DNA of 46,087 nucleotides, from positions 1 through 46,087 of the forward strand of contig VBCM01000192.1 in the NCBI GenBank assembly GCA_005883675.1, given 5' to 3'. Shown here in pieces: positions 57 through 26,659 of the stretch. How positions within the stretch are numbered: position 1 is the first letter of the stretch; every line of letters begins with the position of its first letter. Source of the stretch: Betaproteobacteria bacterium (GTDB lineage: Bacteria; Pseudomonadota; Gammaproteobacteria; Burkholderiales; SG8-39). The notes under the pieces were generated by a model that worked only from the letters and a program-made list of their open reading frames with translations, ran no database searches and was not told the DNA's origin. A program made the translations under genes and the position numbers.

Positions 57-3000
57 GTGCCTGACATCCTCCAGCTCCGGGGACCGTGCGCGGTCTCCGA
101 GTTCCGGCTCGCCAAGCTCGTCGCGCAACTCAGCAAAGTCGATCCCGGCATCCGGGCCGTCGCGGCCGAGTTCCGCCATTTCATCGAGCTCGAGCGCGAC
201 CTCACGCCGCCGGAGCGCAGCATCCTCGAACGGCTGCTCGCCTACGGCGAGCCGCCGGCTGAATCGCACGGGCGCCTGTACCTTGTAGTTCCTCGGCTTG
301 GCACCCTCTCGCCCTGGTCATCGAAGGCTACCGACATCGCGCACAACTGCGGCCTTTCGGCCGTGAAGCGCGTCGAGCGTGGTACCGCTTATTACGTGCA
401 GTCGGAACACGCGGGCGTCGCGCCCCTGCTGCATGACCGCATGACGCAGACGGTGCTCTCGTCATTCGATGAGGCGACGCGGCTCTTCGCGCACGTGCCG
501 CCGCGCCCACTCCAGTCCATCCCCATCGCCGGACTGCGCCAGGCGAACACGCGGCTCGGCCTCGCGCTGAGCGACGACGAGATCGAGTACCTCGAGCGCG
601 GCTACCGCGCGATCGGCCGCGATCCGACGGATGCCGAGCTCACCATGTTCGCGCAGGCGAACTCCGAGCACTGCCGCCACAAGATCTTCAACGGCGACTG
701 GATCATCGACGGCGAGAAGCAGGACCAATCGCTCTTCGCCATGATCCGCCACACGCACGCGGTGAATCCGAAGGGCACCGTGGTCGCTTACGCCGATAAC
801 GCCGCCATCATGGAAGGGCGCAGCGCCCAGCGCTTTCACCCGCGCGCGGATGGCACTTACGCCCGGCATGGCGGGCTCACCCATACGGTGATGAAGGTCG
901 AGACGCACAATCACCCGACGGCGATTTCGCCCTTTCCGGGCGCGGCGACCGGCGCAGGCGGTGAGATCCGCGACGAGGGCGCGACGGGGCGCGGCGCGAA
1001 GCCGAAGGCCGGCCTCGTCGGCTACACGACCTCCTACCTGCGCATCCCGGACCACGAGCATCCGTGGGAGGCGCAATCCCAGGGCAGGCCCGCGCACATC
1101 GCGTCCGCGCTCGAAATCATGCTCGAGGCGCCGATCGGCGCCGCAGCGTACAACAACGAGTTCGGCCGCCCGAACCTCTGCGGCTACTTCCGCGCCTTCG
1201 AGCATCAGAACCGCGGCTATCACAAGCCGATCATGCTCGCCGGCGGCATCGGCAACATCGACGCCGCGCATAGCGCGAAGCGTGAGCTCGCGGCGGGCAC
1301 GCTCCTTATCCAGCTCGGCGGCCCGGGGCTCCTCATCGGCATGGGCGGCGGCGCGGCCTCGTCGATGGGCGCGGGAGCGAACGTCGCCGAGCTCGACTAC
1401 GACTCCGTGCAGCGCGACAACGCCGAGATGCAGCGCCGCGCCCAGGAAGTCATCGACCGCTGCTGGCAGCTCGGCCCGGCGAACCCGATCCTTTCGATCC
1501 ACGACGTGGGCGCGGGCGGGCTCTCGAATGCCGTGCCCGAGCTCGTGTGGTCGGCGCGGCGCGGCGCCAAGCTCGAGCTCCGCGCCATCCCGAGCGAAGA
1601 CACCGGCATGTCGCCGCGCGAGATCTGGTGCAACGAGGCGCAGGAGCGCTATGTGCTCGCAATTGCACCCAAGGATCTGCCGACGTTCGAGAAGCTTTGC
1701 CAGCGCGAACGCTGCCCATTCGCGGTGCTGGGCACAACGACCGACGACGGCCGGCTGCTGGTCACCGACAGCAAATTCGGCAGGAAGCCGGTGGACATCG
1801 ACCTTGCTGTCATCCTCGGAAGACCGCCGAAGATGCTGCGCGACGTCCGCCATGTCGCGCGAGAGCCCGAGCCGCTGGTGCTCGACAAGATCGCGCCCGA
1901 CGCCGCCGCGCACCGCATCATGCGGCACCCGGCCGTCGCGGCGAAGCACTTCCTCGTCTCGATCGGCGATCGCACGGTCGGCGGCCTTTGCGCGCGCGAC
2001 CCGTTCGTCGGGCCATGGCAGGTGCCGGTCGCCGACTGCGCGGTGACGCTGCTCGACTATGACGGCTACGCCGGCGAGGCGATGGCGATCGGCGAGCGCA
2101 CGCCGCTCGCGCTCATCGATGCGCCTGCCTCGGGCCGCATGGCGATCGGCGAGGCGATCACCAACATCGCCGCGGCGCACATTGGCTCGCTCCAGCAGGT
2201 GAAGGTCTCGGCGAACTGGATGGCCGCGGCCGGTTATCCGGGCGAGGACGCGGCGCTCTACGATACGGTGCGCGCGGTGGCGATGGAGCTTTGTCCGGCG
2301 CTGGGCGTCTCGATTCCCGTCGGGAAGGATTCCCTGTCGATGCAAACGCGCTGGGACAGCAAAGAGGTCGTTGCGCCGCTCTCGCTCATCGTCTCCGCCT
2401 TTGCGCCGGTGGAGGACGCGCGCGACACGCTAACGCCGGAGCTCCACACCGACGTGGACGAGACGGAGCTCCTGCTCATCGACCTCGGCTGCGGCAAGAA
2501 CCGGCTCGGCGGCTCGATCCTCGCGCAAACCTTCGCCGCGGGCTACGGCACCGAATGCCCGGACGTGGACGATCCGGCACTGCTGAAGGCGTTCTTCGCC
2601 GCCATCCAGGCGCTGCGGCCGCTCATCCTCGCGTATCACGATCGCTCCGACGGCGGTCTCTTCGCCACCGTGTGCGAGATGGCCTTCGCCGGGCACTGCG
2701 GCGTCACTATCAACATCGATCCGCTTGCGTTCGACGCGGCCACCGACGACGTCGACGCGTTCAAGAGGAACGCCGACGAGCAGCTCGCCGGCCGAGCACG
2801 CGAGCTCGCGCTCGCCGCGCTCTACAACGAGGAGCTCGGCGCGGTTATCCAGATCCGCACGCGCGATCGCGCCAAGGCCATGCAGGTGCTGCGCGAGGCG
2901 GGCCTCGGCGCCTGCACGCACGTCATCGGCCAGCTCAACAACCGCGACGAGATCCGCTTCACGCGCAATAACCAGCCCGTGTACGCCAACAAGCGCGACC

Positions 3001-3920
3001 ACGTGCAGCGCATCTGGAGCGAGCTCACCTACCGCATGCAGGCGCTGCGCGACCATCCCGAGTCGGCGCGCGAGGAGTACGACCGCATCATCGACCTGAA
3101 CGACAGCGGTCTCTCGATGGAGCTCAAGTTCGAGATCAAGCCCGTCTCCACCGGCGCTCGGCCCCGCGTCGCCATCCTGCGCGAGCAGGGCGTAAACGGC
3201 CAGGTCGAGATGGCGGCCGCGTTCGATCGCGCGGGCTTCGAGGCGGTCGACGTGCACATGACCGATCTCCTCGCCGGCCAGCGAACGCTCGCCGGATTCA
3301 AGGGCATCGTCGCCGGCGGCGGCTTCGCCTACGGCGACGTGCTCGGCGCCGGACGCGGCTGGGCAAGCACGATCCTCTACAACGTCCGCGTGCGCGCCGA
3401 GTTCATCAACTTCTTCGCGCGCAGCGACACCTTCGCGCTCGGCGCCTGCAACGGCTGCCAGATGTTCGCCGCGCTGAAGGAGCTCGTCCCCGGCGCCGCG
3501 CACTGGCCCGCCTTCGTGCGCAACAAATCGGAGCAGTTCGAAGGCCGGCTCGTCATGGTGCAAATAGAGCAGAGCCCGTCGCTCTTCTTCGCCGGCATGG
3601 CCGGCAGCCGCATCCCCATCGTCACCGCTCACGGCGAAGGCCGCGCCGAGTTCGCCGGCAGCGAGCCGCAGCTCGTCTGCATGCGCTACGTCGACCATGC
3701 GGGCCAGCCCACCGAAACCTATCCCTACAACCCGAGCGGCTCACCGGAGGGCATCACCGGCCTCACCACCGCCGACGGCCGCTTCACCATCCTCATGCCC
3801 CACGCCGAGCGCTGCTTCCGCTCCGTCCAATACTCCTGGCGTAGCCGAATTCGGAGCCAGGGTCGCAATTCGGTGTCAGGCACTGATTGGCACGAGGCGG
3901 CTTGTCAACTAATCTTTTAG
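57..3920 (+). CDS. purL: Phosphoribosylformylglycinamidine synthase, single-chain PurL with altered C-terminus
   Basis: Converts FGAR to FGAM with glutamine and ATP in purine synthesis (cytosol). At 1287 aa it has the size of the large proteobacterial PurL: N-terminal PurS-like part ([15 protein letters not shown] near residue 90), two AIR-synthase-like halves ([30 protein letters not shown]) and a C-terminal glutaminase with nucleophile Cys1131 in [10 protein letters not shown] and His1249/Glu1251 in [10 protein letters not shown]. The GTG start at 57 gives MPDILQLRG, which matches family N-termini, but no good ribosome site is visible and the start lies inside the motif AGTGCCTGACA (56-66). 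After YSWR (about residue 1258) the usual tail, ending with a GPWxRMFRNAR-like motif, is absent and is replaced by residues read from a dispersed repeat (3847-3885). The catalytic residues lie before the change. Identity is certain; whether the tail matters is unknown. Confidence 0.96.
3847..3885. repeat. Dispersed repeat unit at the 3' end of purL
   Basis: GAATTCGGAGCCAGGGTCG (3847-3865) is followed by a second unit, CAATTCGGTGTCAGGCACTG (3866-3885). The first 19 bases recur exactly at 26641-26659 between two convergent genes. TGTCAGGCACT (3874-3884) is the exact reverse complement of AGTGCCTGACA at 56-66, so inverted copies bracket purL. The sequence is read in frame as the final residues of PurL. 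Downstream, TTGTCAACTA occurs twice (about 3903 and 3931), suggesting further repeat debris before the next gene. Confidence 0.75.
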
Positions 3921-3973
3921 GACGAGAGTTTGTCAACTAGAAAGTCACTAAACAGGATTTAGGCAGCATCCGG

Positions 3974-4411
3974 ATGTCATCGAATGGTTTAAGCATCGCG
4001 GTGGAGGTCGAGCCCGCCGACGAGGTTGTTCGGACGATTTTCGATGGGCTATCCCATTCGAATATAGAGCGAACCGCCGACGGAAAGCTTGAGCGCCTCT
4101 GCCTCGTCGCGCGAAAGACCGACAAGGCAATTGTGGGCGGGATCTATGGCGAGATGTATTGGGGCTGGCTCAGCGTCATGGCTCTTTGGGTAGCGCCCGC
4201 ATTCCGGCGACGCGGTTTGGGGACTCAGTTGCTATCCCGCGCGGAAACGGACGCTGTCGCGAAGGGTTGTCATGACGCCTACCTCGACACGTTTTCGTTT
4301 CAGGATTGTGGGCTGTATATACGCGCGGGCTACGAGGTATTCGGCACGCTGGAGCATTTTCCGGGCAAGCATTCGAGGCAGTTCTTGCGTAAGAGGTTGC
4401 ATGCTGTCTAA
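3974..4411 (+). CDS. GNAT family N-acetyltransferase
   Basis: A 145-aa single-domain GNAT protein expected to transfer an acetyl group from acetyl-CoA to an unknown amine. The acetyl-CoA loop (motif A) is APAFRRRGLGTQLL near residues 74-87, preceded by the beta-4 strand LSVMALWV; the C-terminal part (YIRAGYEVFGTLEHFPGKH) fits motif B and a substrate-side loop. The ATG at 3974 is preceded by a purine-poor leader without a clear ribosome site. By eye its GC content is lower than that of the flanking genes, and it lies directly after the repeat-altered end of purL, so it may be a recent insertion. The substrate cannot be told; the family includes antibiotic, polyamine and protein acetylases. Confidence 0.85.
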   Translation: MSSNGLSIAVEVEPADEVVRTIFDGLSHSNIERTADGKLERLCLVARKTDKAIVGGIYGEMYWGWLSVMALWVAPAFRRRGLGTQLLSRAETDAVAKGCHDAYLDTFSFQDCGLYIRAGYEVFGTLEHFPGKHSRQFLRKRLHAV

Positions 4412-4441
4412 CAACACGATCGGTGGCCGGGACGACACCGC

Positions 4442-4945
4442 GTGGTAGACGATTCTCGAGATAACCGCAGTCTCGAAACTTCCGGGCCGGACGTCGCAAA
4501 CTTTGGGCTGGTCCGTCCGCCGTTCGTCTACCTGGGCTCGATCGCACTCGGCCTGGTGCTTCACCTCCTTTGGCCGGCACGCGTTGTCCCTCCATCGATC
4601 AGCACGCCAGCGGGCGCCATCATTACGGTCCTGGCAATCGCGCTTTTCGTCTCCGCAGTTCGCACCCTCCGGGCAGCTGGCACGCCCATCCCAGGCAACC
4701 GCCCTACGACAGCGATCGTGCGCACGGGACCCTACCGCTTCAGCCGGAATCCCATCTATCTCGCCTTCTCGCTTCTTCAGCTCGGTCTCGCTCTTTGGGT
4801 CAACAGTCTCGCCTTGCTCATTACGCTCATTCCAGCTGTTGCGCTCATGTGGCTCGTGGTCATCCCGAGGGAAGAGCGTTACCTCGAAGCACGGTTTCCC
4901 TCGAAGTACTTACCCTACAAGGCTTCGGTCCGTCGGTGGCTCTAG
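4442..4945 (+). CDS. Isoprenylcysteine/phospholipid methyltransferase-like membrane protein
   Basis: A 167-aa membrane protein of the ICMT/PEMT-like family. Hydrophobic segments lie near residues 28-46, 57-75 and 105-140. The family core is present: RTGPYRFSRNPIYLAF (about 95-110), followed by a hydrophobic hairpin and PREERYLEARFPSKYLPYK, where the family places SAM-binding and acidic residues. Bacterial members methylate poorly known small molecules or lipids. The start is GTG 4442, 30 nt after the acetyltransferase, so the two may be co-transcribed. Composition resembles the GNAT gene rather than the GC-rich surroundings. A distant second member lies at 28862-29488. The substrate is unknown. 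Confidence 0.82.
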   Translation: MVDDSRDNRSLETSGPDVANFGLVRPPFVYLGSIALGLVLHLLWPARVVPPSISTPAGAIITVLAIALFVSAVRTLRAAGTPIPGNRPTTAIVRTGPYRFSRNPIYLAFSLLQLGLALWVNSLALLITLIPAVALMWLVVIPREERYLEARFPSKYLPYKASVRRWL

Positions 4946-26358: not shown

Positions 26359-26640
26359 ATGAAACGCTGCGTTGCGTTCCTCCTCGCACTGGTCGTGGCC
26401 TCCGGGCCCGCTTTTGCGCAGCGCGGCGAACGCGATGGGCGTGGCGCCGGCCCGGGCAAGAACCAGGGCATGAGCAAGGACGAGCGCCAGCGTATGCGCG
26501 ACGACATGCGCGAGGTGTACCGGGATAGAGGGGGCGACCGCAACCGCCAGGACCGCCCGCCGCAGCGCCAGCTCTCGCCGCAGGAGCGCGAGAAGCTGCG
26601 CCGCGACATCCAGGACGCCAACAAGAACCTTCGCAAGTAG
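26359..26640 (+). CDS. Small secreted basic/charged protein
   Basis: A 93-aa protein with a clear signal peptide (MKRCVAFLLALVVASGPAFA, cleavage before QRGERD) and a mature part of about 73 residues made almost only of Arg, Asp, Gln, Lys and Gly. One helix-prone block is MSKDERQRMRDDMREVYRDR and another LSPQEREKLRRDIQDANKNL, so it may be a soluble helical periplasmic protein similar in character to small stress proteins of the Spy/CpxP type, without proven relation. It diverges from the OmpR-like regulator, which may control it. A dispersed repeat follows the stop directly. Confidence 0.75.
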   Translation: MKRCVAFLLALVVASGPAFAQRGERDGRGAGPGKNQGMSKDERQRMRDDMREVYRDRGGDRNRQDRPPQRQLSPQEREKLRRDIQDANKNLRK

Positions 26641-26659
26641 GAATTCGGAGCCAGGGTCG
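26641..26659. repeat. Second copy of the 19-bp dispersed repeat
   Basis: GAATTCGGAGCCAGGGTCG is identical to 3847-3865. It occupies nearly the whole 22-nt gap between the stop of the small secreted protein (plus) and the stop of the DMT transporter (minus). Confidence 0.85.

Follow-up and report, generated by a model that had tools for sequence, protein, structure and literature searches.

The window analysed here, a stretch of 46,087 nucleotides, comes from a betaproteobacterial draft assembly (G000; 299 contigs, 92% complete, 4.0 Mb). It carries a purL gene, encoding FGAM synthase, whose 3' end lies beside a dispersed repeat and is unlike the ends of the other purL genes examined. How did a conserved gene come to lose its final codons at such an element, and was the element the cause? 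The open reading frame (57..3920, forward strand, GTG start) is identified as PurL by the model TIGR01735, with a score of 1746 bits against a cut-off of 1123; the match stops at position 1286 of 1307 in the model, leaving the C-terminal end incomplete. Homology to other PurL proteins runs to W1261 (3837-3839), and R1262 (CGT, 3840-3842) still matches PurL of the related genome G010. The homologous part of the gene spans 57..3842, with TGG CGT as its last codons. Foreign sequence begins at 3843, where the frame reads AGC CGA ATT CGG AGC CAG GGT CGC AAT TCG GTG, and this replacement tail (3843..3920) comprises 25 codons and a TAG at 3918-3920. In its place about 22 conserved C-terminal residues are absent, which bears out the claim, made in an earlier sequence-only reading of this DNA, that the final 25 or so residues of PurL are missing.

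The consensus of the glutaminase domain (48 domains) has the C-terminal end SWxPxxWGEDSPWMRMFRNARxWVG. This tail is kept in 107 of 108 full-length PurL proteins among the matches listed, the window protein being the sole exception, and its replacement tail recurs in none of the others. A strict motif, AALMRMFRNAR, is missed in three of the 107, yet the tail is plainly there. Profile matches to PurL were obtained in 58 of 61 genomes, and 30 of these loci were opened for reading of the tail; the 108 proteins were drawn from 110 opened loci (30 + 80 among the matches listed). Two loci were set aside, one from G010 in which the match begins at residue 28 (L017) and one in which the gene is cut by a contig end (L018). 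The tail is nonetheless intact in the former, and the genome of the latter, G009, has an intact purL end on another contig (L046).

The lost tail was also sought elsewhere, as the sequence-only reading had proposed. No remnant was detected in 3843-4500, where the best score was equalled by 170 of 500 shuffles, or in the whole window (64 of 100 shuffles). A search of the 92% complete G000 assembly gave two weak matches at E ≤ 10, the better of them with an E of 0.11 within a 616-amino acid frame. Relocation of the tail was rejected, no genomic match being convincing, as was a second copy of purL, since G000 contains a single PurL match.

Within the foreign codons lies a first repeat unit, G + AATTCGGAGCCAGGGTCGCAATT (3847..3870, forward), a member of a dispersed family of about 74 copies, whose core 19-mer GAATTCGGAGCCAGGGTCG (3847-3865) is read within the purL frame. 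It is followed by a second, diverged unit, AATTCGGTGTCAGGCACT (3867..3884, forward), and then by an 18-base box, CTTGTCAACTAATCTTTT, with a second box, GTCAACTA (together 3901..3939, forward). The second unit is nearly unique in G000, where it is found as itself and at one place with three mismatches, and its sequence is therefore not that of a dispersed repeat of this genome. The frame does run through the repeat and its neighbour (3847-3884) before stopping, as had been claimed, but the neighbour is not itself a dispersed repeat. In the window, the 19-mer is found at two places with up to three mismatches (3847 and 26641), against 0.02 expected in shuffles. The second is an exact copy (26641..26659, forward) and stands directly 3' of a TAG (26638-26640), which closes a 97-codon open frame from 26347 that is a putative gene at most. 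At the thresholds used, no Rfam element or terminator-like site was found at the unit.

Among genomes with a PurL match, G010 has the protein most similar to that of the window (81% of residues), the two genes sharing 81.4% nucleotide identity over residues 30-1261. The G010 protein has an intact C-terminus, ...YSWRPPGLGEDSPWMQLFRNARRWVG*, and its gene carries a repeat unit exactly on the stop codon (TAATTCGGGGCCAGGGTCG). The end of the gene reads ...CGC TGG GTC GGC TAA TTCGGGGCCAGGGTCGTAATTATTCGGGG..., the AA of the TAA being common to stop and unit. What follows stands in the same order in both genomes: the unit is succeeded in G010 by TCGGGGTCAGACCCCTG and then CTTGTCAACTAATCTTTT, and in the window by AATTCGGTGTCAGGCACTG and then the identical 18 bases, the correspondence of TCGGGGTCAGACCCCTG to the second unit being drawn from a global alignment only. 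The sequence 3' of the first unit gives a score of 36 between the two genomes, where 2000 shuffles reach 27 at most; the 18-base box alone accounts for this score. At the junction (3842..3843), the stretch separating TCCTGGCGT from AATTCGG measures 67 bases in G010 and 5 (AGCCG) in the window. The net loss, counted by hand on the aligned sequences, is 62 bp, which is not a multiple of three and therefore shifts the frame. Among the genus members read, G001, G002, G006, G007 and G009 have an intact purL tail and no unit there. In the comparison of purL ends with and without the repeat, suggested earlier, the tail is intact in these five and also in unit-bearing G010.

From the anatomy of the locus, the intact G010 gene with its unit on the stop and the absence of the tail from the window, we infer an order of events in which, probably, a resident unit outside purL came first and a deletion beside it followed, rather than an insertion into the gene. 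A terminal-repeat unit of the RAYT/TIRYT type would have lain at the purL stop or immediately 3' of it, as in G010, with the protein unharmed. A short deletion (net 62 bp), with one end in the codons after W1261 and the other 4-5 bases from the unit, would then have removed the stop together with the last 20 or so codons, putting the sequence beyond in another frame. Translation would now run through the unit in a stop-free frame, ending at the TAG after the 25 foreign codons. The deletion may have arisen by slippage or microhomology, CTGG being present at both ends in G010, or through activity at the unit. In this single case, the position of the unit end, 4 bases from the breakpoint, does no more than suggest that the repeat was the cause.

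The sequence-only reading had instead proposed that the repeat inserted into purL or recombined at its 3' end. Plain insertion into an otherwise intact gene is not favoured, because the unit of G010 follows an intact purL and a clean insertion would have left the tail downstream, where it is absent. Nor is an exchange of the 3' flank by recombination between distant copies favoured, as the flank resembles that of G010, though part of it is also found elsewhere. The truncation is known from one genome assembly, and repeats are weak points of short-read assemblies; a draft in 299 contigs, 92% complete, might thus have dropped 62 bases where the assembler met the repeat. Such an artefact is quite improbable, as the breakpoint lies outside the repeated word and both sides of the junction resemble the same G010 locus. 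Furthermore, the longest junction-spanning word that recurs in the other G000 loci compared (at most about 185 kb of 4.0 Mb) is 12 bases. A chimera is unlikely on these last two grounds.

A separate matter is whether the purL units of G000 and G010 descend from one insertion. In a purL tree (1189 codons, 10 genomes), G010 groups with G009 and G000 falls outside, with support of 98 and 100 for nucleotide and protein sequences, respectively; a tree of a dioxygenase gene (253 codons, 8 genomes) gives the same grouping, with support of 93 and 98. At purL, G009 lacks a unit, and its 77% complete assembly yielded no copy of the family. As G010 groups with a genome that lacks the unit, a single shared insertion at purL needs a loss in G009. 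A parallel pattern is seen at hutI, where G000 has a unit, G010 a diverged, unit-like end and G009 none. The purL units also differ in subtype, that of the window having GGAGCC, which is frequent in G000, and that of G010 having GGGGCC, and a copy on another G000 contig (C137) has 28 bases in common with the purL unit of the window. Boxes like CTTGTCAACTAATCTTTT are found elsewhere in G007 and G010 as well, in G010 again behind a second-type unit. Subtype, the C137 likeness and these box relatives would argue against a simple shared history; the common order of unit, second unit and box would speak for one insertion. There may have been a single old insertion that G009 later lost, or this gene end may have received a unit twice.

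The differences of subtype, the 28 identical bases and the grouping of G010 with unit-less G009, together with empty sites elsewhere that show the family to insert, leave room for an independent event. A G000-type unit would have entered the last codons of purL, the displaced tail being lost with it or afterwards, and the unit on the G010 stop would be separate. This is unlikely, as it requires both an insertion within the gene and a deletion of its other side, and the second unit and the 18-base box stand in the same order in the two genomes. Moreover, no remnant of the tail lies downstream of the window purL, and units elsewhere leave the testable proteins whole. The conclusion that a deletion took place beside the unit rests on the missing tail and is independent of whether there were one or two insertion events.

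With up to three mismatches, the 19-mer is found at 75 places in G000, against one for a reversed control. Across the genus the family occupies 74 places in G000, 17 in G010, 3 in G005 and 1 in G007; none were found in the other 7 of the 11 members, several of whose assemblies are incomplete. Many units are arranged as inverted pairs. Two such dimers were folded and form long hairpins (z -3.87 and -9.95), and the folds of the purL unit (z -0.93) and the unit at 26641 (z -0.52) do not beat shuffles. Family units lie on both sides of a Y1_Tnp gene at one of seven places (L011, at 1122 on the forward and 1934 on the reverse strand). At the other Y1_Tnp places, with up to five mismatches, diverged inverted repeats stand on both sides at two, on one side at one and on neither at three. 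Three other Y1_Tnp genes adjoin repeats with GGGGTCAG or GGGGACAG, which fit the motif GGGGWSAS, and the family unit carries GGAGCCAG, GGGGCCAG or similar, an inexact fit. The family looks mobile because a unit pair flanks a Y1 transposase and two sites are empty in G010; the earlier suggestion that these elements move thus gains support. The unit-flanked transposase (L011, G000:C285:9149-9478) lies within an 841-residue open frame and is perhaps inserted in frame in another gene. On its sequence features, the family appears to resemble RAYT/TIRYT terminal repeats, a known kind. Its units are presumably unrelated in sequence to the BOX elements of pneumococci.

There are 74 distinct unit contexts in G000, and the best coding frame runs towards the unit in 64, is antisense in 9 and is too short in 1. 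The frames come from a codon-usage score, for which three genes of the window served as the training set, and not from annotation; certain calls are weak, and among the small frames there may be some that are not genes. In 50 of the 64 sense-coding contexts (including L001, L181 and L183) the stop codon occupies one of four fixed registers on the unit. The stop ends at -1 (TAG|GAATTC) in 8 of the 64, at +1 (T|GA) in 10, at +2 (T|AA) in 18 and at +21 in 14, the frames of this last group gaining a C-terminal NSxPGS or a near-variant and then TAA. Of the remainder, 10 have the stop upstream (-3 to -59) and 4, including purL, further downstream. Among the 54 units with a stop at -1 or later, the frame goes with the preceding base. 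The TAA-giving frame is found at 18 of 20 units preceded by T, against 1 of 26 preceded by G (not TAGG; p 1.2e-9), and the TGA-giving frame at 10 of 15 preceded by TG, against 1 of 11 with another base before the G (p 0.005).

When 20 of the 54 listed unit-adjoining proteins were submitted to NCBIfam, 4 of the 20 exceeded its cut-offs, and all 4 reach to within two positions of the model end: NtrC (463/463), HutI (376/377), HutG (261/263) and EgtD (299/301). Where tested, units thus spare the protein as a rule, purL being the exception. In G010, the convergent stops at fdhD overlap in GCCTAGGC, and G000 has GCCT|GAATTCC...GGAATTC|AGGC, an arrangement such as would be left after clean insertion at CT^AG without duplication. 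At the dioxygenase gene of L001, the dimer of G000 corresponds in G010 to TAATCA, in which two convergent stops abut.

Units may lie on stop codons because the element chooses such targets or because harmless insertions are the ones that survive. Transposition directed to stop codons, or to the CTAG-like sites where convergent stops overlap, would cost no residue and could leave a two-way hairpin, and purL would then be a register broken by deletion; we hold this view tentatively, as possible but rather doubtful. If it is true, units may have reached the stops of purL and hutI more than once. With the fixed registers and the empty sites in a relative, it becomes possible to test how a RAYT-type transposase chooses its targets.

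Repeats of this general kind have been described. The TIR repeats of TIRYTs, which are RAYT-like Y1 transposases (Di Nocera et al. 2013, PMC3733652), likewise number in the tens, as single units or as inverted pairs, and in G000 one pair flanks a Y1_Tnp gene (L011). The motif GGGGWSAS is common to only some TIRs, and the unit AATTC(C/G)G(A/G)(T/G)CCAGGGTCG is not named in the accessible text of that paper. According to the same source, REPs lie mostly at the 3' ends of genes, with some inside coding regions, and GTAG REPs can supply stop codons; TIR units on stop codons, as seen for the G000 family, are not mentioned in the part of its text available to us. The accessible part of the account of GTAG REPs and RAYTs (Nunvar et al. 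2010, PMC2817692) describes small repeats tied to IS200/IS605-like tyrosine transposases and arranged in inverted pairs, as here. Unlike those REPs, the G000 units do not have a conserved GTAG at the unit end, GTAG standing near only a few of them (39 contexts, by eye). Pneumococcal BOX elements overlap 58 genes; for 36 of these, whose 3' ends fall within a BOX, the element provides the stop, and there is no strong evidence that the genes are truncated. Small repeats are also enriched between convergent genes (PMC3049150, as far as its text was available). Like BOX, the G000 units lie at gene ends; unlike BOX, the unit at purL stands beside a truncated gene, and the host is unrelated. A literature search, with most subscription papers outside its reach, found no report of the unit or of a stop-codon register of TIRs. 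The purL case is ordinary in kind, and it is the surrounding genome-wide pattern of placement that is interesting. Accounts of transposase-linked small repeats at the ends of genes usually treat them as harmless. The purL of the window, a conserved purine gene present in single copy, is truncated beside such a repeat, and the C-terminus that annotation gives for PurL will in reality be repeat sequence.

The glutaminase cysteine region (GACNGCQMF) and the H and E of MPHAE, which we take to be the catalytic residues, are present in the window PurL. Since the body of the protein and these three residues look intact, PurL is probably still made and at least partly active, perhaps weakened; this is likelier than a dead enzyme. 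It is nonetheless conceivable, if somewhat unlikely, that purL is dying, whatever the origin of the truncation, with loss of the tail ending the use of glutamine and the protein drifting. Ten of 395 sites that are invariant in the other 27 family and order sequences are changed in the window protein (tied second of 28), as are 4 of 261 invariant sites in the larger set, the second highest count among the 108 sequences from the matches listed. These changes may be a hint of relaxation. One substitution, P1250A (3804-3806), lies within the MPHPE motif, between its H and its E, but MPHAE is also seen in 6 of 68 other PurL tails picked up by a loose pattern. Amino-acid to synonymous changes number 26/36 in the G000 lineage and 14/30 in that of G010, so that the ratio is not significantly raised (Fisher p 0.32). 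Besides this, 1262 codons remain open in a gene that is single copy in G000.

Some minor features of the locus may be recorded. The start of purL, GTGCCTGACATC (57-69), is similar to the second unit read in reverse complement; that it is a repeat copy was considered and judged a coincidence, as relatives begin alike (VPQILRLRG, VPQVLQLRG). Boxes of the GTCAACTAA type, present at 3901-3939 of the window and in L147, L152, L153 and L154, sometimes occur in twos or threes, about 26 bases apart. At purL and in L154 they stand next to units of the second type; others lie elsewhere. Downstream of purL, TCTAACAACACGATC (4400-4460), which follows a GNAT open reading frame (3974-4411), and GTTAGGC in G010 look like possible ends of integron attC sites. 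The genes neighbouring purL differ among G000, G010 and G009, as cassettes would.
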